Source: Fodinibius roseus
Lineage (GTDB): Bacteria > Bacteroidota > Rhodothermia > Balneolales > Balneolaceae
NCBI RefSeq assembly: GCF_900129315.1
Contig: NZ_FQUS01000005.1
Span: 186,001-250,000 of the forward strand
Direction: 5' to 3'
DNA: 64,000 nt
In this document: piece after piece, positions 34,745-47,965 of the stretch
Layout: the number at the start of each line of letters is the position of its first letter
Numbering within the stretch: the stretch's first letter is position 1
The notes under the pieces: generated by a model
Told to the model about the DNA's origin: nothing
The model's input: only the letters and a program-made list of their open reading frames with translations
Databases searched by the model: none
Position numbers and translations under genes: made by a program

Positions 34745-35230
34745 ATGGAATTATATTTTTTGATTTTACATCCTCTCGTCATGTTGGGCAGCGGGCTCAT
34801 GGCGGGCCTCTTTTTCATTTTCTCCACGTGCGTAATGAAGGCGCTTGAGGGACTCCGTCCACCCGAAGGAATTACGGCCATGCAATCCATCAACCGAACG
34901 ATCAAAAACCCGCTGTTTGCCTTGGTCTTCTGGGGTACGCCGGTGGCCTGCTTGTTATTGATGATCTCAACACTTTTCCACTGGCAGGGACTCCCCTCCA
35001 TCTTTCTTCTTGCAGGCGGTGTATGTTACCTGGCTGGTGGATTGCTAGTTACGTTGATCATCCATGTACCGATGAATAATAAGCTGGCTACACTCCACAG
35101 GGATGCCCCAAATGCTGCTAATTTCTGGGCCAATTATGTTAGCCGGTGGACAAGGTGGAATCACCTGCGAACGGTAATGACATTGATAGCATTGACCCTG
35201 TTTCTTTGGTATGCTATGTCAATAAACTAA
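34745..35230 (+). CDS. DUF1772 (anthrone oxygenase-like) membrane protein
   Basis: The 161-residue protein has four membrane helices and the DUF1772 pattern: LGSGLMAGLFFIFSTCVMKAL, IHVPMNNKLATL after the third helix, and FWANYVSRWTRWNHLRTV before the fourth. Fungal relatives are anthrone oxygenases. The bacterial role is unknown but the family is frequent in redox-stress operons. It follows the small membrane gene by 4 bp and is followed closely by a GNAT gene. Confidence 0.85.
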   Translation: MELYFLILHPLVMLGSGLMAGLFFIFSTCVMKALEGLRPPEGITAMQSINRTIKNPLFALVFWGTPVACLLLMISTLFHWQGLPSIFLLAGGVCYLAGGLLVTLIIHVPMNNKLATLHRDAPNAANFWANYVSRWTRWNHLRTVMTLIALTLFLWYAMSIN

Positions 35231-35256
35231 ATCCATTTGATTCAAATGAGGTTTGT

Positions 35257-35775
35257 ATGAGTCAGTTATCACCAAATATTAGTTTGCGAATAGCTACGCC
35301 TGATGATCAGGCTTTGTTAGAGCATTGGGATAAGCAGCCTCATGTGGAAGCAGCAGCCCCTAATGATGACCTGGATTGGGAGCAGGAATTGAATAGAAAA
35401 TCTAAATGGGAAGAAAGGTTTATTGCCGAGCTCAATGGACGTCCCATTGGTTTTCTGCAGATTATCGATGCGGCGCGGGAAGAAACCCATTACTGGGGCG
35501 AAACAGAGGAGGGACACAAGGCCATTGATATTTGGATCGGCGAAGCAGATGACCTCGGAAGAGGTTACGGAACCGAAATGATGAAATTGGCACTGGACAG
35601 GTGTTTTTCTGATCCTGAAGTAAAAGCTGTGCTCATCGATCCGCTTGAGAGTAATACCAAAGCACATAAGTTTTATCGACGCCTGGGATTTCAATTCGTA
35701 GAACGTCGCCGGTTTGGTGAGGACGATTGCCTGGTGTTCAGGCTGTATCGTGACATTGGAATTTTACAGTTATGA
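35257..35775 (+). CDS. GNAT N-acetyltransferase (AAC(6')-like)
   Basis: Starting at MSQLSPNISLRIATPDD (35257) gives 172 residues. The GNAT fold is clear: HWDKQPHV near residue 20, RPIGFLQIID, the acetyl-CoA loop GRGYGTEMMKLAL near residue 110 and NTKAHKFYRRLGFQFVERR. The LLxxWxxxPHV start and IDIWIG strand resemble aminoglycoside 6'-N-acetyltransferase relatives, but resistance activity is not implied. It may be the last gene of the operon starting at 33.9 kb. Confidence 0.85.
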   Translation: MSQLSPNISLRIATPDDQALLEHWDKQPHVEAAAPNDDLDWEQELNRKSKWEERFIAELNGRPIGFLQIIDAAREETHYWGETEEGHKAIDIWIGEADDLGRGYGTEMMKLALDRCFSDPEVKAVLIDPLESNTKAHKFYRRLGFQFVERRRFGEDDCLVFRLYRDIGILQL

Positions 35776-35852
35776 AAGCAAACAATAATGAAGGCGTTCA
35801 GCAGCCAGAAGATCCTCCGATTATTCTTATTAACTAATAACCACACTGGGTT

Positions 35853-35879
35853 TGTCACGTTTGGGGTAGGTATTTTGTC
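35853..35879 (+). promoter_or_regulatory. ECF41-type promoter of the first ECF41 sigma gene
   Basis: TGTCACG is followed after exactly 16 bp by TGTC. The published ECF41 target promoter is TGTCACA-N16-CGTC. The promoter is 40 bp upstream of the sigma-factor start, as expected for autoregulation. The same two elements with the same spacer recur in front of the downstream CMD gene. Confidence 0.8.
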
Positions 35880-35918
35880 TTACTATATAACTGTAGCTTT
35901 TAATAGGTCATTTTGACA

Positions 35919-36758
35919 ATGAAGGACTATCAAAACCTACTCTTTCCGTACGCCTATAATGTATTGGGTTCGAAAGCCGATGCCAGAGATGCTATTCAGG
36001 ATGTAATGACAAAGTATGCCGGATTAGATTCGGAGGTGAAGAATGAAAAAAGTTATTTGATCCGAGCTGTTATTAATCAGTCAATTAACCTAAAGGACAA
36101 GCAAAAGCGAAAAACCAGTCTTGAGGATTCCTGGTTGCCTGAACCCATAGAAACAACCACGGCCGATGAAAATATTATTGCAGAAGATATCCTTTCCTAT
36201 TCCTTGCTGTTTCTGTTAGAGCAGCTAAATCCTAAGGAACGTGCCGTTTTTATTCTTAAAGAGGCATTTGCCTATTCCCATAAGGAGATTGCCGAAGTTC
36301 TGTCTGTGAAGGTCGCATATTCCAGGAAATTACTGAGTAGGGCAAGGGCGAAAGTCAGAAAAACAGATCAAAAGCCCGGAGATATTCAGGGTTTTGGGGC
36401 ATACCGGAATCAGATCGAGCGATATATCAAAGCTATTCGGAGCCGGGATACTGAGAAGCTCCAAAGTATGCTTGCTGATGATGTTACGCTTTATGCTGAT
36501 GGCGGGGATGAAATCAATGTTGTGCAGCGAATATGCAGAGGACGCCCGGAAGTGGCCGACCTGTTGGTATTTGCATATCACAAATTTCAACGTTCACAGT
36601 CACTGAGGTTTACAGAGATCAATCACCAGCCCGCGCTGTTATTTTGTGAGGGAGACGAGATAAAAGCATGTCAGGTGTATCATTTTGGTGAAGATGGACA
36701 GACTATCCGCCGGATTTGTAACATTCTGGATCCGGATAAGCTAAAGGATATTGTTTAA
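35919..36758 (+). CDS. ECF41-family sigma factor with C-terminal SnoaL-like domain
   Basis: The 279-residue protein has sigma-70 region 2 (residues 5-65), the ECF41 linker motif WLPEP (72-76), region 4 (about 100-160; LNPKERAVFILKEAFAYSHKEIAEVL) and a SnoaL/NTF2-like extension (about 170-275). The extension has the DGGDE motif and a terminal NILDPDKL, matching the NPxKL motif of ECF41. In characterised ECF41 members the extension is a fused regulator rather than an enzyme, and no separate anti-sigma is needed. The next gene is the typical COE partner, a CMD protein. Confidence 0.93.
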   Translation: MKDYQNLLFPYAYNVLGSKADARDAIQDVMTKYAGLDSEVKNEKSYLIRAVINQSINLKDKQKRKTSLEDSWLPEPIETTTADENIIAEDILSYSLLFLLEQLNPKERAVFILKEAFAYSHKEIAEVLSVKVAYSRKLLSRARAKVRKTDQKPGDIQGFGAYRNQIERYIKAIRSRDTEKLQSMLADDVTLYADGGDEINVVQRICRGRPEVADLLVFAYHKFQRSQSLRFTEINHQPALLFCEGDEIKACQVYHFGEDGQTIRRICNILDPDKLKDIV

Positions 36759-36769
36759 TGTAGATCACC

Positions 36770-36796
36770 TGTCACGTTTGACCTTTCTTGCCTGTC
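36770..36796 (+). promoter_or_regulatory. ECF41-type promoter of the CMD gene
   Basis: TGTCACG-N16-TGTC is identical in both core elements and spacer length to the promoter in front of the sigma gene, and is 51 bp before the CMD start. Together they define the specificity of this sigma factor. Confidence 0.82.
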
Positions 36797-36846
36797 TTAT
36801 GTACTGAAGTAATCACATAAATGCTAAAACCTAAAAAGAGGTAACA

Positions 36847-37308
36847 ATGACAGAACGAATATCATATCAAGATGTCGTACCAGAATTAATCAAAGGGTTA
36901 AATAACATCGAACAGCAACTAAAAAAAACCGGTCTCGATTTAAAATTACTGGAGCTTGTAAAGTATCGTGTCTCGCAGATCAATGGCTGTGCATATTGCC
37001 TGGATATGCATCACAAAGAGCTTTTAGAAATGGGAGAGGAAGAGCTGCGGATGCATTCGCTTCCGGCGTGGAGAGAATGCCTCTTTTATACGGACAAAGA
37101 AAGAGCCGTTTTAGCTTTTGCTGAAGCCGTGACAAAAGCCGATTCTGAAGGGGTAGATGACCAGGTCTTTGAGTCATTGACTAAATTTTATTCCAAATCA
37201 GAGATTGCTGCTTTAACAGTGGGAATAACGCAGATAAATACGTGGAATCGAATCAACAAAGTCTTTGGGACCACCCCGGGAAACTATATTGTTGGACAGC
37301 AGGGGTAA
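36847..37308 (+). CDS. CMD/AhpD-like protein, target of the first ECF41 sigma
   Basis: The 153-residue protein has the AhpD-type motif QINGCAYCLDMHHKEL (Cys-x-x-Cys-x3-His near residue 48) and MHSLPAWRECLFYTDKERAVLAFAEA. It is expected to be a thiol peroxidase-like or organic-peroxide-related enzyme. Its own promoter matches that of the upstream ECF41 gene, the standard ECF41-COE arrangement. Confidence 0.9.
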   Translation: MTERISYQDVVPELIKGLNNIEQQLKKTGLDLKLLELVKYRVSQINGCAYCLDMHHKELLEMGEEELRMHSLPAWRECLFYTDKERAVLAFAEAVTKADSEGVDDQVFESLTKFYSKSEIAALTVGITQINTWNRINKVFGTTPGNYIVGQQG

Positions 37309-37327
37309 TCTGGCAACTTTTTATTAA

Positions 37328-37372
37328 TGTCGGTTTTATTCAATTGCCGAGCTTGCTCTTCTTATATATTTC
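37328..37372 (+). promoter_or_regulatory. 18-bp box with -7 element, upstream of terminator and broken SDR
   Basis: TGTCGGTTTTATTCAATT is followed, 37 bp from its first base, by TATATTTC. A strong hairpin with a T-run lies about 75-100 bp into the predicted transcript, before the broken SDR gene. The promoter may therefore make a short RNA. Confidence 0.65.
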
Positions 37373-37445
37373 CAATGCTGAACTGTTACAATTAGTCAGC
37401 TACAATAGCTTGACTCTCTTGATCACACCTAAATAAATACACACT

Positions 37446-37478
37446 CTTGCAGAGCGGTGGAAGCTCTGCAAGGTTTTT
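37446..37478 (+). terminator. Rho-independent terminator-like hairpin
   Basis: CTTGCAGAGC and GCTCTGCAAG form a perfect 10-bp stem around a 7-nt loop, followed by G and five T. It lies between a box promoter and the start of the truncated SDR, so it either ends a short transcript or attenuates the SDR remnant. Confidence 0.75.
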
Positions 37479-37496
37479 AAACAATTGAAGCCAAAT

Positions 37497-37775
37497 ATGG
37501 ACAGTCAACGTTTTAACAATAAAGTAGTACTTGTAACGGGTGGTAGCTCAGGAATGGGATTTGCTTCCGCGAAGTTGTTTGCTGATGAGGGTGCGGATGT
37601 CGTCATCACAGGCCGAAACCTGGAAAAGCTTGAATCTGCAGCCGAAAAAATTGACAGTGAAAAGGTGCTGTCCGTTCAGGGTGATGTTGGCGATATGAAT
37701 CACCTTGATAATTTGGCACAAAAGATTCATGACACCTTCGGCAAACTGGATATTCTCTTTGCCAATGCGGGTTAG
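37497..37775 (+). pseudogene. SDR oxidoreductase truncated at the NAG motif
   Basis: From the ATG at 37497 the reading is a perfect SDR beginning (KVVLVTGGSSGMGFASAKLF, VVITGRNLEKLE, VQGDVGDMN) and ends exactly after LDILFANAG with a TAG. The Ser/Tyr/Lys catalytic half is absent. It is related to the intact SDR at 26.4 kb. Confidence 0.82.
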
Positions 37776-37889
37776 TACACGTGAAAGGTTAGAATTGAAA
37801 TTTGTCTCTATATTTAGCGAATGAGACATAATTCTACGTAGATACTCGTATGAAAAAGATACAAAAAAAAAGACTAAAATGACCATAAA

Positions 37890-38579
37890 ATGAAGAATAA
37901 AAAAGTACTCGTTGTTGGAGGTAGCTTCGGTATTGGGCTCACTGTAGCCAAACAGGCTCAAGGGCATGGTGCTTACGTCATCATAGCTTCGCGTAATACA
38001 ACCGAGAGAAAGAAGGAACTACTCCAAGAGCTGCCGGAAGAATCAATTGATCTCTATGATTTGGATATAACATCGTCATCAGCCCAGAACGATTTATTTG
38101 CACAAATAAGTGAAATTGATCATCTGGTTATTACGGTGAAGCCCGAAATCAGTTCTGCTCCTTTTCAAGAAACCAGTGTTCAAGAAGCCAAAGAGGCTTT
38201 CGAGACTAAGTTGTGGGGAGCCTATCAGCTGATTCAGGCAGCCCAACCCTTTATCGCCGAAAATGGCAGTATTATTCTGACAAGCGGAATTGCCGGGGAA
38301 AAGATATTCCGGGGTGCATCTACCATTGCTCTCATCAACAGTGCTACGGAAACATTAGGGCGATCGCTGGCCGTGGAATTGGCTCCGGTGAGGGTTAATG
38401 TGGTAAGTCCCGGATTTGTTAAACCAAAGCCCCAAGCCCTGCAGAATATGGCCAACAATTTTCCCGTTCCCCGATTGGCTTCCCCTGATGAGATTGCCTC
38501 AGCTTATCTAAGACTCATGGAGAACCAATATGTGACCGGAACAGTAACGGTTGTAGATGGTGGTGCTACGTTGATTTGA
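37890..38579 (+). CDS. Atypical SDR lacking the YxxxK pair
   Basis: The 229-residue protein has an SDR glycine loop (VVGGSFGIGLTVAKQA), an acidic DLDIT segment, the Ser-carrying strand SIILTSGIAG and the C-terminal VSPGFVKPK...GTVTVVDGGATLI. At the catalytic position, RGASTIALINSATE has Ile146 and Asn150 where classical SDRs have Tyr and Lys. It may still bind NAD(P) but is unlikely to do normal hydride transfer; related non-YxxxK SDRs exist. It starts 115 bp after the broken SDR. Confidence 0.85.
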   Translation: MKNKKVLVVGGSFGIGLTVAKQAQGHGAYVIIASRNTTERKKELLQELPEESIDLYDLDITSSSAQNDLFAQISEIDHLVITVKPEISSAPFQETSVQEAKEAFETKLWGAYQLIQAAQPFIAENGSIILTSGIAGEKIFRGASTIALINSATETLGRSLAVELAPVRVNVVSPGFVKPKPQALQNMANNFPVPRLASPDEIASAYLRLMENQYVTGTVTVVDGGATLI

Positions 38580-38688
38580 TGGTGAATACATTATAAATAA
38601 TAATTTGAAATTGCTTAAATAGGCAACGTAATGTATCCTGTTTTCGATTAAGAAAATGTTTTTATAAAAATGTAAGGTGGTTTAAATA

Positions 38689-39273
38689 ATGCTTAACAGA
38701 ATTTGTGTGTACTGTGGATCAAGTCCCGGGAAAAGGGAAGAATATACGGCGGGTGCAAAAAAGCTGGCCGAATTATTAGTACAACAGAATGTTGAATTAG
38801 TATATGGCGGAGCCAGTGTAGGAATAATGGGAGCGCTTGCCGATACGGTTTTGGAAAATGGTGGAAAGGTAACCGGTATCATCCCGGAAGATCTGGTGAA
38901 AAAAGAAGTCGCTCATAAGGGACTAACAGATTTGCAGGTCGTCTCGTCCATGCATGAAAGAAAGTTTGCAATGGCGGAACAGTCGGATGGGTTTATTGCC
39001 TTGCCCGGCGGACTTGGAACCATTGAGGAACTATTCGAAGTACTTACGTGGAGTCAGCTTGGATTTCACCAAAAACCCGTCGGACTGCTCAACGTTTGCG
39101 GGTATTATGATCATCTTTCTTCATTTTTAGACCATGCCGTTTCTGAGGAGTTTGTAAAACAAGACCACCGTCAGATACTGATGGTGGAAGATAATCCCAA
39201 AGCATTGGTTAGTCGGTTTGAACATTATGAAGCTCCGGCGGTAGATAAGTGGATAAGCAGAGACAGCACATAG
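38689..39273 (+). CDS. LOG-family nucleotide 5'-monophosphate phosphoribohydrolase
   Basis: The 194-residue protein matches TIGR00730 LOG proteins: ICVYCGSSPGKREEY at the start, VYGGASVGIMGALAD, the catalytic Arg in SMHERKFAMAEQSD and the signature LPGGLGTIEELFEVLTW near residue 105. These enzymes release ribose 5-phosphate from AMP or cytokinin-like nucleotides. It is single and close to full family length. Confidence 0.92.
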   Translation: MLNRICVYCGSSPGKREEYTAGAKKLAELLVQQNVELVYGGASVGIMGALADTVLENGGKVTGIIPEDLVKKEVAHKGLTDLQVVSSMHERKFAMAEQSDGFIALPGGLGTIEELFEVLTWSQLGFHQKPVGLLNVCGYYDHLSSFLDHAVSEEFVKQDHRQILMVEDNPKALVSRFEHYEAPAVDKWISRDST

Positions 39274-39535
39274 TTTCAAAAAATTTTTCTGACTTCCCGT
39301 GAATTTTCCCGACTACAGCAAGTAAAACGGAATGTTCACGTATGTCATATTTTATGAATTGTATTTATCGCGCTATACGTATCCACCGCGCCCGTAAAAA
39401 ACTGCGCGGTCTGTTTACCACCTGTTGCCACATCCGGTTTGATGCCAATGGAGAGTTTGCCGGCTGTACTATTAAGGATCACTGTGGGCCCCTCTAGGAA
39501 CTGCAAGATCAGTTGTGCGACATGAACAATTGAGA
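39274..39535. other. Intergenic stretch without a supported gene
   Basis: A 68-codon minus-strand reading (39345-39551) includes GPTVILNSTAGKLSIGIKP but overlaps the box promoter at 39536 and has no recognised homologue in memory. It could be a remnant. Nothing else is recognised. Confidence 0.35.
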
Positions 39536-39580
39536 TGTCGGTTTTATTCAATCGCTAAGGAATCCACTTGCCTATCTTTT
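39536..39580 (+). promoter_or_regulatory. 18-bp box with -7 element, upstream of ClpP-like gene
   Basis: TGTCGGTTTTATTCAATC is followed, 37 bp from its first base, by TATCTTTT. The ClpP-like gene starts 121 bp from the box, giving a predicted leader of about 70 nt. Confidence 0.68.
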
Positions 39581-39656
39581 TCTTGAGCGGAGTTACGAAA
39601 CCGTTCTAATTGGACTCCAGAATTAATGACACTGATAACTTAACAAGTAGTATTCT

Positions 39657-40226
39657 ATGGCCTCATTTAAACCTATACCCGTAAAACGATCGATTACCGA
39701 ACGTCTTTTAGATTCAAGGATCGTCATAATCAATGGAGAAATTACCCAGGAACTGGTGGGTAAGGTGGCCGGTAAGTTGCTGGCTTTGTCGGCAGAATCC
39801 AATGAGCCGATTACCCTGTTTATTCACTCGCAGGGCGGACATGTTGATTCCGGTCATGCCATTTATGATGCCATTCGCTTTGTGGATGCGCAGGTGCGCA
39901 TCGTTGGAAACGGCTGGGTAGCCAGCGCCGGGGCCTTAATCTACGTTTCTGTCTCCAAAGAAAACCGATATTGCCTGCCGAATACGCGATTTCTGCTTCA
40001 CCAACCGAGTGGTGGTGTGCAGGGAAGTGGCAGTGATATTGCCATTGAAGCTGAGGAAATTGTAAAAATGAGACAGCGATTGAACGACATTATTGCTGAT
40101 GCCACAGGTCAACCTTTGGAGAAAGTGGAACAAGATACTCAGCGCAACTTCTGGCTGACAGCTGAAGAGGCGAAGGAGTATGGACTGGTGGGAACTATTG
40201 TCGAGCATGTATCAGAAGTAAGCTGA
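39657..40226 (+). CDS. ClpP-family serine peptidase with Ser-His-Asn triad
   Basis: The 189-residue ClpP-fold protein has TLFIHSQGGHVDSGHAIYD, the nucleophile Ser90 in GWVASAGALIY, His115 in RFLLHQPSGG and the C-terminal TAEEAKEYGLVGTI. The third triad residue, Asp in RDxF of most ClpP, is Asn164 here (DTQRNFW); Listeria ClpP1 shows a similar Asp-to-Asn change. It is separate from clpX and probably an accessory paralogue of the housekeeping ClpP. A box promoter precedes it, suggesting stress-regulated expression. Confidence 0.87.
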   Translation: MASFKPIPVKRSITERLLDSRIVIINGEITQELVGKVAGKLLALSAESNEPITLFIHSQGGHVDSGHAIYDAIRFVDAQVRIVGNGWVASAGALIYVSVSKENRYCLPNTRFLLHQPSGGVQGSGSDIAIEAEEIVKMRQRLNDIIADATGQPLEKVEQDTQRNFWLTAEEAKEYGLVGTIVEHVSEVS

Positions 40227-40344
40227 AATGGTAATGTCGCAAACCACCCGCAGAGTTGCCGTAATCTTACCGTACTAAGTGTTCCATGAAATTTTATTCT
40301 TATTGATAGCAAAGAAGCGAAAAGTTGAATGAAACCCCAATTTT

Positions 40345-40737
40345 ATGATAACGAATGTAATCCAGGTAACCATTTTTGTAAAAGATCAGGAAGAAGCCAA
40401 AAAATTCTATACTGAAAAGCTGGGATTTGTAGTGCGCAATGAAATGGATTTCGGGGAAGATTGGAAATATCTGACTGTTGCTCCGAATGAATCCAATGAG
40501 ACTGTTCTTGAACTGGCACAAGCTGACAGCACGGAGAAGCAAGCATTAATTGGTAACCAGGCAGGAGATCTTCCCGTGGTTATGTTTAAATCCGATGATA
40601 TTGAGAAAGGTTATGAGGAGCTGCATGAGCGAGACGTTCAATTTGAAGGTCAGCCCAAAGAAGTGCCCGGCGGTAAAGGGGTCAGGTTTCAGGATCTGGA
40701 CGGCAACCTGTTTGATCTTTATGAACCACAACAATGA
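40345..40737 (+). CDS. VOC-family protein
   Basis: The 130-residue protein is a VOC domain: VIQVTIFVKDQEEAKKFYTEKLGF at the start, a central VMFKSDDIEKGYEELHERDVQF and the closing FQDLDGNLFDLYEP. It resembles extradiol-dioxygenase-like or glyoxalase-like proteins of unknown substrate. An alpha/beta hydrolase remnant begins 9 bp after its stop, suggesting a former operon. Confidence 0.88.
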   Translation: MITNVIQVTIFVKDQEEAKKFYTEKLGFVVRNEMDFGEDWKYLTVAPNESNETVLELAQADSTEKQALIGNQAGDLPVVMFKSDDIEKGYEELHERDVQFEGQPKEVPGGKGVRFQDLDGNLFDLYEPQQ

Positions 40738-40746
40738 CAGGTAAAT

Positions 40747-40854
40747 ATGGGACGGATCAGATCTAAAGATGGCTCGGCTATGTATTTTGAGCGGAAGGGA
40801 GAAGGTCCACCGCTTATTCTTATGCCATACTTGATTTATTTTGTTAATTCTTAG
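40747..40854 (+). pseudogene. Alpha/beta hydrolase N-terminal fragment
   Basis: RIRSKDGSAMYFERKGEGPP and LILM is the standard start of small alpha/beta hydrolases just before the oxyanion HG strand. The reading then changes and stops after 35 codons. The catalytic triad is missing. Confidence 0.7.
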
Positions 40855-40866
40855 TTTGAACAAATT

Positions 40867-41454
40867 ATGAGTGATCACAAACGAAAAGTCATAATCTATG
40901 TGGGAGAAAGGTCAACAACGAATCTTGTAAAACAAGGTGAGAATAAGATTATTCTGGTACGTGCTCCTGATCCTGCCTCGGCTGCAGAGCTGGCCGTTGA
41001 TCAGGTTAATCAGGGAGCTGATTGCATTGAATTATGTGGTGGAACAGGTTTTAAGTGGCTCACAGCCGTAAAGTCAGCAATAGATAATCGGATTCCTATT
41101 GGACTGGTAACCTATCCTTTTGAGTCAATTACCGGGGCGGCGAATTTTAAAGCAAGATATGAGTCAGGTGGTAGCCAACAAAAGGAAGGGGAGGTTTTTC
41201 TTGTATTAGCTGATAAAGCAAATCCCAATATGGACCGGATAAAACAGAAGCATGAGGCCGGATGGACGACCTTTGTTGCGGTTTCGGGCAAATCCGAAGC
41301 GGCAGAAGAAGCGAAGAATCTCCATAAAAAAGGTGCTACCCTGATTGAATTGTATGGCGGACTAAATTTTACGGACGCGGATATAATTCATGAAGCAACA
41401 GATGGCCAGGTTCCTGTTGGAGTTGCTTCGTACTATGTAAATGACAAAAGATAG
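40867..41454 (+). CDS. Tandem DUF6506-domain protein
   Basis: The 195-residue protein contains two copies of one module. Copy 1 has VNQGADCIELCGGTGFKWLTA and IPIGLVTYPFES. Copy 2 has HKKGATLIELYGGLNFTDADI and VPVGVASYYV. Both match the DUF6506 pattern GxxxIELCGG...PVGxVxY, a roughly 100-residue family of unknown function with a Rossmann-like look. The second copy has Tyr in place of the Cys of the ELCGG motif. No partner gene is evident. Confidence 0.7.
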   Translation: MSDHKRKVIIYVGERSTTNLVKQGENKIILVRAPDPASAAELAVDQVNQGADCIELCGGTGFKWLTAVKSAIDNRIPIGLVTYPFESITGAANFKARYESGGSQQKEGEVFLVLADKANPNMDRIKQKHEAGWTTFVAVSGKSEAAEEAKNLHKKGATLIELYGGLNFTDADIIHEATDGQVPVGVASYYVNDKR

Positions 41455-41614
41455 ACACCCATGCTAAGAAATAAAGACCGATCGGCATCCCGATCAATTT
41501 GAATGAGTTTTTTCAGGAGGTGTAATTCTTGCACAACTGGATTACTTAATGTCTTAAAACTGGATTATTTAGCTCATCCAAAAAAGTAGTACATTTTTAT
41601 TGAAATAAACAGTA

Positions 41615-41926
41615 ATGGAAATTCAAACCATGAAGTCTCATAAAGACATTGCAACTTTTCTTATGCGTTTAGCATTGGCAGCTACCTTTTTGTAAGCAGT
41701 AGCTTCTCGCTTGGGTTTATGGGGAGAGCATTCGGCTGGGTGGAATAGTTTTTTAGCTTACACTGCAGATGTTAACTCTTATGCACCACCAGAGATTGTG
41801 CCATTTTTAGCCATTGCAGCTACAGTGTTAGAGATAACTTTTTCAGTGTTGCTAATCACAGGGTATAAAACCCGACTGGCCGCCTATGGAGCTTCTGTGC
41901 TGACTCTTCTTTTTGCCTGCATTTGA
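41615..41926 (+). pseudogene. DoxX-family gene with nonsense codon and lost 3' end
   Basis: From the ATG at 41615 the reading HKDIATFLMRLALAATFL meets TAA, then continues in the same frame with AVASRLGLWG, FLAIAATVLEITFSVLLITG and RLAAYGASVLTLLFACI, a DoxX protein. The single TAA probably replaced a Ser codon. The last helix is shifted into another frame. Two lesions make it inactive. Confidence 0.75.
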
Positions 41927-42013
41927 TGATCAAGAGAGACTTTGAAGTACCTTCTTATCAATCCACTTGTTTACAAGGGAGGGATTTGGGGAAAAGTGGT
42001 AGTATAATGGTCT

Positions 42014-42670
42014 CTATGAAAGAATCTTTTCCCAGTTTTGTTTCCCGAAATCATCCAGAATCACATCAGCTTTGCTTAAATCCTGATCCCCCGAATGGGG
42101 ATTTCTATAACCGATGCACCTCATTCCGGCTGCTTTGGCAGCACGTACGCCATTTTCCGAGTCCTCAATGACACAACATTGCTCTGGAGGAGTTTGGCTC
42201 AATGTTGATGCCTTGAGAAATATCATCGGATCAGGTTTGGATCGCTCCAGTTCGGCTCCACTGATGGTAATTGGAAAATATGTTTTAAGATTAAGTTTAT
42301 TGAGGACAAACTTGATCTCTTCGCGTGTTGCTGATGATGCAAGAACCAGGCTTTTATTGTGTTTATAAAAATGTCGGATCAGACGCTTTATCCCGGAAAT
42401 ATGGTTTAACTTTTCCGTATTGGAAAGATGCTTCAGGTATCGTTGCTGCTTTTCGGCAAGGATTTTATCGGCGGATACGGGGAGTTGGTATTTATCAATT
42501 ATATCCTCCCACATTTCATGGGCCGAGGTACCAACGTATTGCCAGTGTTCCTCTGTTGTAATTTCTAATCCCAGTTCATGAAATAACTCTTGTTCAATCT
42601 TCATATGAATGGGTTCGCTGTCAACAATAACCCCGTCCATATCGAAAATAATGGTCGTTATTTGTTTCAT
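42014..42670 (-). CDS. HAD-superfamily phosphatase/phosphomutase
   Basis: The 218-residue protein is a HAD hydrolase of the beta-phosphoglucomutase-like group: nucleophile Asp10 in IIFDMDGVIVDSEP, an alpha-helical cap, motif II Ser in LVLASSATREE, motif III Lys in SGAELERSKPDP and motif IV in CCVIEDSENGVRAAKAAG. The probable substrate is a sugar phosphate, but beta-phosphoglucomutase activity cannot be claimed. Monocistronic. Confidence 0.9.
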   Translation of the reverse strand: MKQITTIIFDMDGVIVDSEPIHMKIEQELFHELGLEITTEEHWQYVGTSAHEMWEDIIDKYQLPVSADKILAEKQQRYLKHLSNTEKLNHISGIKRLIRHFYKHNKSLVLASSATREEIKFVLNKLNLKTYFPITISGAELERSKPDPMIFLKASTLSQTPPEQCCVIEDSENGVRAAKAAGMRCIGYRNPHSGDQDLSKADVILDDFGKQNWEKILS

Positions 42671-42711
42671 GGACTCAATTTTTGATTGTTAACGGTTTTA
42701 TTATTATAGGA

Positions 42712-42867
42712 GTCTGCCGGACTTAGAGGACACGGGGAGCGCCAGACAATTTGAGTCAGGTTTTGGGGTCTTTTGAGGCGAATAGTGGGCCTATTTAACG
42801 AAAGAGAGCTCGGAAACCGGCCAAACATACGACTGACTCGTAGTAGATATTGCTAAGTCCGACAGAC
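42712..42867. repeat. 156-bp segment bounded by 15-bp inverted repeats
   Basis: GTCTGCCGGACTTAG (42712-42726) and CTAAGTCCGACAGAC (42853-42867) are inverted repeats with one mismatch. The segment is non-coding and similar in size to the element at 16312. It may be a small non-autonomous transposable relic. The rest of the 42671-42999 gap contains nothing recognisable. Confidence 0.4.
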
Positions 42868-42999
42868 GCCCGGGACTCAGTTATCCCAATCGTAGACTGA
42901 CGCTCTTTCTTTTCTACGGCTGGGATTATTCCTCACAAATTTCTTGATCGGTCAGCTATCGGGATGATGCTCCATTTCGTGCTCCATTTGGTTTATAAT

Positions 43000-43278
43000 C
43001 TAATAATTTTTTTTGATACCGTTCCGGATAAGTTCAAATGCACTCAATTTGGCATATTTCCTGAGGATTAAATGCAGGATCAGGGTCATCCCAAAGATGG
43101 TCAGGGCTATGCCTCCGGGGATGAGGGCAGGGGAAAGGAATTCTGAAGGGAGCGAGAGCGGTACGACAAACTCCAGGACTATAGCAGCCAAAAAAGGAAT
43201 TCCAAAGACAATCTCGAAAGTCTGCCACCAATTCCTGTGTGCGACATCGTTTGCTGTTGCTTCTGACTTGTTGTTCAT
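43000..43278 (-). CDS. Truncated isoprenylcysteine methyltransferase-like membrane protein
   Basis: From MNNKSEAT (43278) the 92 residues contain two hydrophobic helices (IVFGIPFLAAIVLEFVV and LIPGGIALTIFGMTLILHLIL) that match the N-terminal half of ICMT/PEMT-like methyltransferase family proteins. The C-terminal SAM-binding part with GPY/SRNP motifs is missing. It is either a small membrane protein or a truncated gene. No partner is evident. Confidence 0.5.
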   Translation of the reverse strand: MNNKSEATANDVAHRNWWQTFEIVFGIPFLAAIVLEFVVPLSLPSEFLSPALIPGGIALTIFGMTLILHLILRKYAKLSAFELIRNGIKKNY

Positions 43279-43347
43279 AGCTGGTATCTCAGATCTCGGC
43301 TTAAGGCATCGAATGCAGATTGCAGACATTGTTTTAGTAGTAAAAGT

Positions 43348-43821
43348 CTACATACGTTCAGTTGGTTTCACTGATATATCCGTTTTCACCGAATTGGCAA
43401 TAAAACACTGCTCATGGGCTTCGTGATGAATGTCACTCTCCTCTTTTTCAGTGGGTTGACTTCTTTTTGCGTACTGCACTTCCGGCTTCAGGGTTACTTC
43501 GGTGATAGCTAATTTTCCCTCTCCGTTTTTCTGCATCACTCCCTTTGCCTTATCTTCGTATTTTTCCACGACAAATCCCCGCCTGGCGGCAATGGACAGA
43601 AACCACAGCATATGGCAACTGGAAAGAGAGGCGATGAATGCCTCCTCGGGATCTATAGCCGATTCGTCTGAATAGGGTATAGGCACTACCTGTGGCGAGG
43701 AGGAGGCGCGCAGGGTTTCGCCACCGTCAAAATGCCAGTTGTGGGCGCGGGAATAACGGCTGTCAGTAAATTTCTCATCATCGTGAAGGGACCAGGAAAT
43801 GGTGGCAGAATAGAGAGACAT
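43348..43821 (-). CDS. OsmC/Ohr-family peroxiredoxin-like protein
   Basis: The 157-residue protein has the OsmC fold with both redox Cys: the first in ASLSSCHMLWFLSIAARRGF and the second in HEAHEQCFIANSVKTDI. Such proteins reduce organic hydroperoxides using dithiols. It lies 51 bp downstream of the second ECF41 sigma gene on the same strand, so it could be part of that operon, following the CMD-sigma pair. Confidence 0.88.
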   Translation of the reverse strand: MSLYSATISWSLHDDEKFTDSRYSRAHNWHFDGGETLRASSSPQVVPIPYSDESAIDPEEAFIASLSSCHMLWFLSIAARRGFVVEKYEDKAKGVMQKNGEGKLAITEVTLKPEVQYAKRSQPTEKEESDIHHEAHEQCFIANSVKTDISVKPTERM

Positions 43822-43872
43822 GATTAACTCTTTGTGATGTTATGCTTGAAGGATATGATTTAATATCAGCAA

Positions 43873-44763
43873 TTATGAGAGCTGTTTTTTGGCTGTACCG
43901 AGTTTATTGGGATTTAGCACTACGTATATGCTTTCTATTTTTTGCTCTTCTATATGAAAAGACCAAACATTATACAACTGGCCTTCCACCCGGATAATCA
44001 TGCCGGGCTCACCATTAACGGAAGTGTATTCGAGCCACCATTTTTTACCTTCGGGTGCTTGTTTTTGAATACCCACCAGAAAGCGGGCAATTTTGTTGCT
44101 TCCGTAAATCGGCTTTCGGGCAGCGGTTACCTTACCGCCGCCGTCAGAGTAGAGAACAGAGTCCTCGGCCAGCAAGGCTTCTACTTCCGCCAAGTCCTGG
44201 CGCTGGACTGCCTCCAGCAAAGCTTTGACGAGCCCCTGCTGTGCGGCCGGCTTACGTTCGAACACTGGCTTTCGATCGTGAATCTGATCCCGTGCCCGCT
44301 GGGCAATTTTACGGCAGTGTGCGGTCGACTTGTTTACAACGTCCGAAATGGTTTCATAGTCATATTCGAACAATTCCCGGAGAATAAATACGGCCCGCTG
44401 AACCGGCGAAAGCTCATCCAGGATCACCAGCATGGCCATAGAAAGCGATTCGGCCAGTTCCAGTTCTTCATCGGGAGTCCGGGTGGGTGCTTCCAGCAGG
44501 GGTTCCGGGAGGTTGGGGCCGATATACCTCTCCCGCTGGTGGCGGGCTTTCTTCAGCTCATCGAGGCATATACGGTGTACCACCGTTGAAAAAAAAGCTG
44601 CCGGCGACCGGATGGTTTCCATATCCTGCTTTTGCCAGCGCAGCCAGGCTTCCTGCACGACATCCTCGGCGGGAGCGACCCTGCCCAGCATTCCGTAGGC
44701 TTGCCGAAACAGACGGAGACGTTGCTGTTCAAAAATATCGGTGAGCTTATGTTGTTTAGTCAT
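43873..44763 (-). CDS. ECF41-family sigma factor (second copy)
   Basis: The best start is MTKQHKLTDIFEQQ (44763), giving 296 residues. Region 2 includes GRVAPAEDVVQEAWLRWQ. The ECF41 linker NLPEP follows (near residue 80). Region 4 has LSPVQRAVFILRELFEYDYETIS. The SnoaL-like extension carries the full ECF41 DGGGK motif (VLYSDGGGKVTAA) and ends VVLNPNKL. The upstream CMD gene on the same strand, 87 bp away, carries a canonical ECF41 promoter. No matching promoter lies directly before the sigma gene itself. Confidence 0.93.
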   Translation of the reverse strand: MTKQHKLTDIFEQQRLRLFRQAYGMLGRVAPAEDVVQEAWLRWQKQDMETIRSPAAFFSTVVHRICLDELKKARHQRERYIGPNLPEPLLEAPTRTPDEELELAESLSMAMLVILDELSPVQRAVFILRELFEYDYETISDVVNKSTAHCRKIAQRARDQIHDRKPVFERKPAAQQGLVKALLEAVQRQDLAEVEALLAEDSVLYSDGGGKVTAARKPIYGSNKIARFLVGIQKQAPEGKKWWLEYTSVNGEPGMIIRVEGQLYNVWSFHIEEQKIESIYVVLNPNKLGTAKKQLS

Positions 44764-44849
44764 ATTGGATGTTATCGGGTAACGCCCTGTCGGGTTGAAA
44801 AAAAACCGGCAGTGCCGCAATGCGTTTCCAAATTATGTTAATAAAATAT

Positions 44850-45437
44850 TTACTGATTATCCGCCCAAATCGCGCACAATTCATCAGAGCCGATGTTCAC
44901 CGGGGCGTTCATCAGGTTAAAGAAATTTTCAATGGCATTAAGCATTGTAATTTGTACGATTTCCCGTTCGCTGAACTGGGCTTGCAGACGCTCAAACGTT
45001 TCGTCTGAAACATGTTTGTTTCGTGTGGCTTCATCCGCATAAGCGAGGGCTGCTTTTTCGGCCGGTGTGAACCGATCACTGTTTTCAAACCGGAGCAGGT
45101 CTTTGAATTTTTTTTCATCGAGTTCGTTCTTGTGGGCCGATGCCTTAGCGATATCAACGCAAAAAGCACAACCGTTCAAGGTAGCTACATAGACCTTAAT
45201 CAGGTGTTTTAGCGTTTCATCAAGTTCAATGGCTTCTTCTGTTTGCATGATTTTCCGGGACAGGCCCAGCGCCTTCGGAAACCGTGCATAGTGTACTTTC
45301 AGTGGGGTAATGACTTTGCCCATTAAGCGCTTGCTGTACCAGTAGGCTATTTTCAATTTCAGCGACGCTGGCTGTTCGATGGGTTCGAGCCGGGGAGTGG
45401 AAACTTGCTGGTTCAGGGATGAAATAGCAGTATTCAT
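44850..45437 (-). CDS. CMD-family protein, partner of the second ECF41 sigma
   Basis: The 195-residue protein is longer than the other CMD proteins here, with an extra 60-residue N-terminus. It has the CxxC motif in TLNGCAFCVDIAKASAHKN near residue 90, but the following His of the AhpD motif is Ala. ERLQAQFSEREIVQITMLNAIENFFNLMNAP is the typical C-terminal helix. It precedes the ECF41 gene. A canonical ECF41 promoter lies about 130 bp upstream. Confidence 0.88.
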   Translation of the reverse strand: MNTAISSLNQQVSTPRLEPIEQPASLKLKIAYWYSKRLMGKVITPLKVHYARFPKALGLSRKIMQTEEAIELDETLKHLIKVYVATLNGCAFCVDIAKASAHKNELDEKKFKDLLRFENSDRFTPAEKAALAYADEATRNKHVSDETFERLQAQFSEREIVQITMLNAIENFFNLMNAPVNIGSDELCAIWADNQ

Positions 45438-45572
45438 AATTTTGATTGGTTATGTTTTGGGAGAATATTCATCTTCCAGTATTCCGGATCCGCCAGATTT
45501 CGTAAAATCCACTTTCCCAGACAAATACGTACAGGTTGAAATCTGACGGATCTTGTAGGGCTTTACTATAGT

Positions 45573-45599
45573 GACGAGCCAGCCCTTTCATTTGTGACA
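45573..45599 (-). promoter_or_regulatory. Canonical ECF41 promoter of the second ECF41 locus
   Basis: On the minus strand TGTCACA is followed after exactly 16 bp by CGTC, identical to the published ECF41 consensus. It points at the CMD-sigma pair. The -10 differs from that of the first locus (TGTC), suggesting separate specificity. Confidence 0.8.
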
Positions 45600-45726
45600 C
45601 CAAACTTTTAGAAACCCTTGCAAAACCGTTTTTTTGGCCAATATCGGCGTTATCGGCCGGTTGAAATTCTCGTATATAAGCTATATGCCCCGAGGGCACC
45701 CTCCATCTGGTCGTGACCCTGAACAA

Positions 45727-46114
45727 AATCCTGGTTATTCAAAGGCTTCTGTTAATCAGTTTTATTTCAAAGAAAAGATCCTGTAGTTGCCGGGCAGTCA
45801 ATTGTATTTACCTTCAAACGGTCAACTTCAGGGAAGCTTATATGATACAATTTTTATTTACTGTAGTTGCTCTGCTTATCCGTTTTTGTTGAGAAAAGGA
45901 CTACTATTCTGTAATAGGAAAAGTTGCGGGAATTGATATTTGCACTAATAAAGTCTGGGTTATTCAGGTAGAATTTAACGAGTATAGACAATACATTACA
46001 TTAAGAATGTTGTTATGCAGGAAAATTTTATGTCATCTACAAGACTTGCCAAAGGATAACCGGTTACCTGCTTACTAAGACGCCAACCGTTCTCGAATCT
46101 AAACGCGTCGTATT
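45727..46114. other. Intergenic stretch before the histidine kinase
   Basis: A 388-bp AT-rich gap between divergent genes with no recognisable coding sequence. A TAACCGGTTA palindrome near 46057 is the only visible structure. Confidence 0.4.
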
Positions 46115-47965
46115 ATGTCAGTAAAGAACATTGACCTATTTTTTAAAGAAAATCCGAATCCGATGTGAATTTATGATCTGGAGAGCCTTCGGATTCTTGA
46201 TGTTAATGGAGCCGCCCTGTCATTATACGGTTATTCCAGGCAGGAAATGCTTTCTCTTACCATCAAAGATCTTGGTCCCCGGCAGGAGGTACCCAAATTA
46301 CTCGAATTTCTGAAGGAACAAAAAAACGCTTTCGATGATGCGGGCATCTGGAGACATCAAGCGAAGGATGGGCAAGACCTTTACGTCAATATTATGTCGC
46401 ATCCAATTAAGACAGAGGAGAAAAAATGTGAGTTGATCGTTGCCAGGGATGTAACCAAACAGGTAAAGACAGAAGCCAAACACAGGGAAGAGCAACAGAT
46501 ACTTGACTTACTTACGGAGAAATTACCCGGTACGTTTTACCTCTTCGATACCGAGGGTAATATGCTTCGTTGGAATGACTATACGGAAGAGGTTACCGGG
46601 TACACATCGGAAGAAATTTCCGATATGAATGTGTTGGATTTTTTCGCTCCCCAGGATCGACCTATTATAGCCTCCGCTATACAACAAGTATTGAGGAAAG
46701 GATATACTGAATTAGAAGGTAGACTAAAAGACAAATCAGGCTCACACATTCCGCTTTATTTAAAAGCCAGCAGGGTTCAGATGAAGGGGAAAGACAGAAT
46801 CCTGGGTATCGGGATCGATATATCGTCTTTACGAGAGACGCAGAACAAACTGGAGGAAGCCAATGAAAAGCTGAATACGGCTCAGCGAATTGCAAAAATG
46901 GGGTACTGGGCTCATAATCTGATTGAGAATGAATCAGAATGGTCTGAGGAAGTGTATAACATTTGGGAGGTTGATCCTGATACGTTAGAGCCCAGTTTCG
47001 AGAGTCTGCTTGAGACCATCCATCCGGAGGACAGAGAACTGTTCTTGAGAGATGTGGAAGAAGCTTTTCCGGATGAGGATTTTTATGACTCGGAACATAG
47101 AATCATTACTCCGGAAGGCAAAGTAAAGTGGATACTGGAACGAATAACACTCAACCGGGATGAAAACGGAAAGCCGCTGATGTTGGAAGGCATCGCCCAG
47201 GACATTACCGAAAAGAAAAAGCATGAACAAGCGATCAGTGAGTCATTGGAAGAGAAAGACACTCTTCTTGCAGAAATTCACCACAGGGTTAAAAATAATC
47301 TCGCAATCATTTCCGGGTTAATGGAACTGGAAGCGATGGAATCGGACAGCGGTGAGCTAAAACAAAGGCTTAGGGACAGCCAAACCCGCATCAACTCTAT
47401 TGCCCTGACACATGAAATTCTGTACCAACAGCAACATTTTGCCAGGATTGAATTCGGGGAAAATATAAAGCGGCTGGTTGTAAAGACGGTGAAGACTTTT
47501 AATGGCAATGTGGAGCTGAGATACGATACGGCTTCAGTGGAACTAAATATTAATCAGGCACTGCCTTGTGCGTTGATCGTGAATGAATTGGTAACGAATG
47601 CTTTAAAACATGCCTTCTACGGTGGCAACGGTGCGGTTCTGGAAATCGAGCTGTATTCTGAAAACGAGGAAGTGTATCTGAGAGTCAGCGACAACGGCAA
47701 AGGACTACCAGAAAATATCGACGTTGAAAATCCTAAGACTCTCGGCATGCAATTGGTGGATACGTTAAAAGATCAACTTGATGCAGAGCTTAACATAAGT
47801 ACCGGAAACGGAACCACATTTGAATTAAGGTTTAAAAAAACGATACAAAAGGAATTGGAAGCTCTTTTAAAAGTATGCCGATATCGAGACTTGATTCATT
47901 TTAAACTAATTGGAAGATGTATACCCTTAATAAGTGTAGTTATCATTGTATTGGAGTTGTGCTAA
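46115..47965 (+). pseudogene. PAS-HisKA_2 histidine kinase with an in-frame TGA
   Basis: The gene starts at 46115 (SVKNIDLFFKENPNPM) and meets TGA at 46166, where the motif NPNPMWIYDLESLRILDVN expects Trp, a one-base TGG-to-TGA change. The frame continues uninterrupted: first PAS, second PAS (GTFYLFDTEGNMLRWND), third PAS (YWAHNLIENESEWSEEV), HisKA_2 with His in AEIHHRVKNNLAIISG, and HATPase_c with NELVTNALKHAF and DNGKG. There are no membrane helices. The C-terminal 35 residues after FELRFKK are unusual. A shorter start at 46247 would omit part of the first PAS. Confidence 0.75.

Follow-up and report, generated by a model that had tools for sequence, protein, structure and literature searches.

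A 64,000-nucleotide stretch of the Fodinibius roseus genome (contig NZ_FQUS01000005.1, positions 186,001 to 250,000 of the forward strand; hereafter the window, whose numbering we use throughout) carries two genes for ECF41-type sigma factors, sigma1 and sigma2, each beside a gene of the carboxymuconolactone decarboxylase (CMD) family, CMD1 and CMD2 respectively. We find that the promoters of the two loci begin their -10 words with different bases, and that among ECF41-like sigma factors this base covaries with a single residue, Asn57 in sigma1 and Asp68 in sigma2. The explanation that we consider probable is that these are two circuits of different descent whose -10 words are set by that residue, an explanation built on motifs, homology and a residue/base covariation that was replicated in held-out sequences; judging from these sequence comparisons, there would be little cross-talk between the two circuits in the cell. 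An earlier note, made from the DNA alone, had proposed a joint divergence of promoter and sigma factor here, and its reading is right in direction, with the -10 part of the case stronger than it stated and the -35 part weaker.

Two sigma factor loci and their promoters

Searching the window for TGTCACR-N14..18-YGTC returned three sites and no others, all with the exact 16-base spacers that the earlier note had described: P1 (35853-35879, plus strand) ahead of sigma1 and P2 (36770-36796, plus strand) ahead of CMD1, both reading TGTCACG-N16-TGTC, and P3 (45573-45599, minus strand) ahead of CMD2 and sigma2, reading TGTCACA-N16-CGTC. P2 begins 12 bases past the sigma1 stop codon, a position kept in relatives, and P1 and P2 have more sequence in common than had been listed, namely TGTCACGTTTG...TGTCTTA. 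The layout of P1 recurs in a same-genus relative (loci L054/L075) and at a paralogue elsewhere in the source genome, sigma3, described below. P3 had been taken to carry the published ECF41 consensus and its words do match, although that consensus, TGTCACA-N16(+-1)-CGTC, also admits TGTT as a -10 word (Wecke et al. 2012, PMC3426412). An Rfam scan of window positions 35000-46500 gave no credible match.

The two sigma factors, sigma1 (279 amino acids; 35919-36758, plus strand) and sigma2 (296 amino acids; 43873-44763, minus strand), are 29% identical, and in both of them PF04542 and PF08281 score over cut-off and SnoaL_2 weakly, in keeping with a SnoaL-like tail. We place the start of sigma1 most likely at ATG 35919, as in relatives, rather than at TTG 35913. 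sigma2 is a canonical ECF41/SigJ-type protein, scoring over the curated cut-off of the NCBIfam SigX4 model TIGR02957 (330.6 vs 323.25 bits), passing the SigJ subfamily model as well, matching SigJ (5xe7) at 3.8e-40 and possessing the motifs NLPEP (with N replacing the W of WLPEP), DGGGK and NPNKL; its context, with CMD2 upstream and P3 as promoter, likewise fits ECF41. sigma1 falls below the SigX4 cut-off (218.4 vs 323.25 bits), though SigX4/SigJ is its best-scoring model, and because of this score we name it ECF41-like and assign it to a divergent clade. It possesses WLPEP, DGG and DPDKL and is missing the K of DGGxK; across its clade LPEP is found in 44/47 members, DGG in 44/47 and (D/N)PxKL in 37/47. 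Its context combines a CMD neighbour and ECF41 spacing, but with the words TGTCACG and TGTC.

The presumed targets are CMD1 for sigma1 (AhpD/carboxymuconolactone-decarboxylase-like, 153 amino acids; 36847-37308, plus strand; PF02627 at 1.3e-17) and CMD2 for sigma2 (195 amino acids; 44850-45437, minus strand; PF02627 at 2e-11), the latter also by its synteny in the genus. Among the neighbouring genes scanned with Pfam, none was an anti-sigma gene.

The residue that tracks the first -10 base

To relate promoter words to protein sequence, we scanned the surroundings of a first set of 174 non-redundant ECF41-like sigma factors with a pattern in which TGTCAC, a spacer of 16 and GT(C/T) were fixed and the first -10 base and the seventh -35 base were left free, recovering 123 sites against 3 for a reversed control. 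These counts bear on whether P1 to P3 are promoters at all. A looser promoter pattern does sit at background level across the 5.08 Mb source assembly (24 matches against 23 for its reversed control), as chance matches would, but in 100 shuffles of the window the mean was 0.27 matches and no run reached three, the sites stand immediately ahead of sigma and CMD genes, in positions conserved over dozens of species, and the closest fits in the genome all fall at sigma1-type loci. We therefore reject chance as a source of the three sites, an idea that we regard as scarcely credible.

Ranking all alignment columns by weighted mutual information with the first -10 base placed the column of Asp68 (codon GAT, 44560-44562, minus strand) and Asn57 (codon AAC, 36087-36089, plus strand) at the top with 0.95, the next column reaching 0.49. 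This column had been suspected by eye beforehand, and the scan ran over every column. Counted by site in this first set, Asp went with C in 25/27, and Asn with T 72 times, with G nine times and with C in 0/81. The same scan gave no strong column for the fourth -10 base; the second and third, being fixed by the search pattern, lay outside the column test.

A second set was gathered after the rule had been fixed (Bacilli genomes, alphaproteobacterial and one cyanobacterial plasmid), and every sequence with 85% or more identity to a first-set member was removed from it. Here Asp went with C at 60/61 sites and Asn with T at 11/12, the two exceptions being second sites of sigma factors that also have a rule-obeying one. 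Combining both sets into 168 non-redundant pairs of sigma factor and promoter that span several phyla (65 of them collected once the rule stood), the majority base per sigma factor was C for 79/79 of the Asp type and T or G for 75/75 of the Asn type (Fisher p = 7e-46, a value not corrected for kinship). On a tree computed without the Asp68/Asn57 column, seven Asp/Asn changes are inferred, and all seven contrasts in the per-sigma data run as predicted. Two nested switches stand out, L268 having Asn with TGTC and adjoining an Asp/CGTC group, and L154 (Herbidospora sakaeratensis) having Asp with CGTT inside an Asn/GGTT group. Seven genomes, the source genome included, carry both types, with all words as predicted.

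Several observations weigh against so simple an assignment. No site of the scanned pattern was found around 71/174 of the first-set sigma factors, and the rule has accordingly been tested only at recognisable sites. Sigma factors with Thr or Ser in the column (first set) follow no rule and occur with any first -10 base, and other residues may contribute to the -10 preference. Restricting the tree to supported branches leaves 5/5 contrasts in agreement, for which a sign test gives only p = 0.06. One locus is clearly mixed, the sole such case: L062, in a same-genus genome (G001), is of the Asp type and has TGTC before the sigma gene and two CGTC sites downstream. Finally, the seventh -35 base overlaps between the sigma types.

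Such a mixed locus and such overlapping -35 words would be expected if the words differed by ancestry of the loci only, the sigma factors tolerating each other's -10 word in a shared response with no insulation, and the distant clades of sigma1 and sigma2 and the rarity of the sigma1 type in its class fit this as well. Tolerance of either word, however, would let the words drift, and over 154 sigma factors Asn is never found with C nor Asp, taken per sigma factor, without it, while the switches recur within clades and within genomes. We consider a shared response unlikely on these grounds, and favour -10 words set by the residue.

Relatives, genome-wide sites and the -35 word

The relatives of sigma1 include Chitinophaga, Aquimarina, Flagellimonas, Sphingobacterium and Pedobacter, with the promoter TGTCAC(G/A)TTTT-N12-TGT(C/T), and 14/47 members of this clade possess a site both before the sigma gene and after it, ahead of the next gene. 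Relatives of sigma2 in the same family have TGTCACA-N16-CGTC some 50-75 bases upstream of the CMD start. sigma1 belongs to a Bacteroidota-type ECF41-like clade and sigma2 to the canonical CGTC clade, the two being distant from each other in the tree, and the promoter split between them is conserved, as had been expected of spacing and sequence in relatives. Joint divergence of promoter and sigma factor is strongly supported by signatures that sort by sigma clade and by a -10 word that tracks a residue of sigma region 2; the earlier note had called this paired divergence the new part, and there the variation of ECF41 -10 words was already published. A Fodinibius salsisoli protein matches sigma1 at 65% identity. 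Searches of 59 relative genomes and 395 phylum genomes found the close sigma1 type within this class here and in one same-genus relative (G008) only, a confinement that suggests horizontal gain of the sigma1-type locus as a candidate reading. A further ECF41-like subgroup, from Actinomycetota (L123, L125, L127, L128, L130, L138 and L144), has TGTCAC(A/G)-N16-GGTT after the sigma gene and is of the Asn type, with L131 of the Ser type.

Within the source genome, the four best sites for TGTCACGTTT-N13-TGTC are the sigma1/CMD1 pair and the pair at sigma3/CMD3, where sigma3, a third homologue on contig 18 and 62% identical to sigma1, is preceded by TGTCACGTTT..TGTCTTA and CMD3 by a one-mismatch copy. 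P3 is the sole exact TGTCACA-N16-CGTC of the genome, and of the remaining three sites with an N16 spacer and YGTC, two lie inside long open frames and the third is 286 bases ahead of the long frame that follows it. A wide regulon of sigma1 or sigma2 was not found in the genome, where mismatch-tolerant sites, and those ending in TGTT or CGTT, did not exceed reversed-pattern controls: TGTCACGTTT-N13-TGTC with at most two mismatches gave 22 matches against 36, and TGTCACA-N16-CGTC with at most one mismatch 32 against 42. The motifs consequently sort into two gene sets, as the earlier note had anticipated of a genome search, but very small ones with their strongest sites only at their own loci, which agrees with published work on Bacillus licheniformis and Rhodobacter sphaeroides, according to which ECF41 sigma factors control one local target (PMC3426412). 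An A-rich tract close to the 5' end of the sigma3 gene itself carries a frameshift (L053 4574-4723, minus strand), which may reflect sequencing error, decay or slippage alike; both promoters of that locus and the CMD3 gene are intact despite the frameshift.

Discrimination might instead reside mainly in the -35 word, TGTCACG or TGTCACA, read by the sigma4 domain, with the -10 residue as a passenger. A G at the seventh -35 base does go with a His, as opposed to Tyr, Phe or Leu, in the sigma4 helix-turn-helix (43/59 His-type sigma factors have such a site, vs 7/109 of the others), and three predicted B. licheniformis sites with G or C at this position gave no reporter activation by Ecf41Bli (PMC3426412), a result consistent with this base playing some part. 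The association is a loose one, however, with no significant tree-based support, and the base is no clean discriminator between the circuits as had been proposed: it is A in 98% of Asp-type sites, and in the sigma1 clade G in 78% and A in 22%, with some loci having the A in just one promoter of their two. Set beside the top rank of the -10 residue for the -10 base, and beside L154, a natural mix that joins a sigma4 His and TGTCACG at -35 to Asp and CGTT at -10, this makes it very improbable to us that the -35 word is the main discriminator.

The surroundings of P3 hold features of their own. The leader of CMD2 exceeds those of relatives by about 90-100 bases, and within it lies a 15-bp inverted repeat, GATCCGTCAGATTTC / GAAATCTGGCGGATC (45487-45552, minus strand), predicted to form a hairpin without a T run and with a shuffle z-score of only -1.8. 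On the upstream side of P3, about 10 bases from its -35 word, ends a copy of a dispersed element of about 140-150 bp (45607-45755, aligned core 45610-45750). The element resembles a miniature inverted-repeat transposable element; its terminal inverted repeats, AGAAGCCTTTGAAAA.. / ..GGTTTTGCAAAGGCTTCT, are imperfect, and it has at least 40 genome copies at 77-85% identity. An open reading frame at 45469-45726 was rejected as a gene, as it has no Pfam match and overlaps both this repeat and P3. Elsewhere in the window, a truncated short-chain dehydrogenase (SDR) frame (37485-37775, 96 amino acids, N-terminal half only) directly precedes a complete SDR gene (37890-38579).

A proposed mechanism and its meaning

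We propose that sigma1, of the Asn type, most likely drives both its own gene and CMD1, each from a separate promoter (P1 and P2), and would thereby be autoregulated, and that sigma2, of the Asp type, would transcribe a CMD2-sigma2 operon from the single promoter P3. An OsmC-like gene 51 bases downstream of sigma2 (43348-43821, minus strand; PF02566 at 5.7e-15) is, by this spacing, probably part of the operon. The CMD and OsmC products presumably point to stress of a peroxide or thiol type, which is our assumption from these families. CMD1 possesses the AhpD-like CxxCxxxH motif (CAYCLDMH) and CMD2 reads CAFCVDIA, without the His, so that chemistry may differ between the two targets. The SnoaL-like tails would gate sigma activity by a small signal, as published for ECF41, whose C-terminal domain is a built-in regulator (PMC3426412; review PMC8999054).

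The -10 words would differ because sigma1 and sigma2 have different residues facing the -10 element at its upstream edge, Asp68 going with C and Asn57 with T (or G), presumably by direct contact. An Asp carboxylate would serve solely as a hydrogen-bond acceptor, for the amino group of C, an Asn amide could also act as donor, to O4 of T or O6 of G, and Thr or Ser could do either; in our reading this chemistry fits all residue classes. Mycobacterium tuberculosis SigJ (PDB 5xe7), the closest solved relative of both proteins, has Asp at the aligned position, as has sigma2, whereas sigma1 has Asn. Asn57 aligns with the last Asn of 'tntyin' in the SigH part of 6jcy, which is Asn92 by the numbering in PMC6411747 (Trp81, Ile85, Asn88, Tyr90, Ile91, Asn92). 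When SigH is in the open complex, this residue makes a bond to the template C of the -11 pair (PMC6411747), directly adjoining the variable first -10 base, but SigH is not an ECF41 and the relevant passages of that paper do not assign the preference upstream of G-11 to Asn92.

Features shared with the ECF41 of Wecke et al. (PMC3426412) are the sigma2 and sigma4 domains, the WLPEP linker, a fused C-terminal domain and a CMD neighbour as target; unlike it, the sigma1 clade has TGTCAC(G/A)TTTT-N12-TGT(C/T), usually separate sigma and CMD promoters and a divergent sequence, and the -10 word is not tied to a sigma residue in the relevant sections of that work. It is already known that the ECF41 -10 word varies (TGTT/CGTC) and that a general residue-base code exists for ECF sigma factors, and the code of Todor et al. 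(2020), which according to PMC8103513 links DNA-contacting residues of the sigma2 and sigma4 domains to promoter bases, may already hold the pairing of Asp/Asn with the first -10 base. On balance, we lean towards the view that in ECF41-type sigma factors a single Asp/Asn exchange would switch this base between C and T or G, that evolution has repeatedly drawn on it to part paralogous circuits sharing a cell, and that the Bacteroidota-type clade, with the promoter TGTCACGTTTT-N12-TGTC, arose from it and is undescribed.

ECF sigma factors coexist in numbers in one cell, where misfiring has to be avoided, and a one-residue, one-base rule that is nearly exception-free offers an explanation, open to direct test, of how ECF41 circuits that are paralogous become separate. 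With it, the -10 word of an uncharacterised ECF41 sigma factor can be predicted from protein sequence, and the Asp/Asn residue becomes a small handle for orthogonal sigma/promoter pairs. The divergent Bacteroidota-type clade, for its part, would escape searches that use the published TGTCACA-CGTC consensus.

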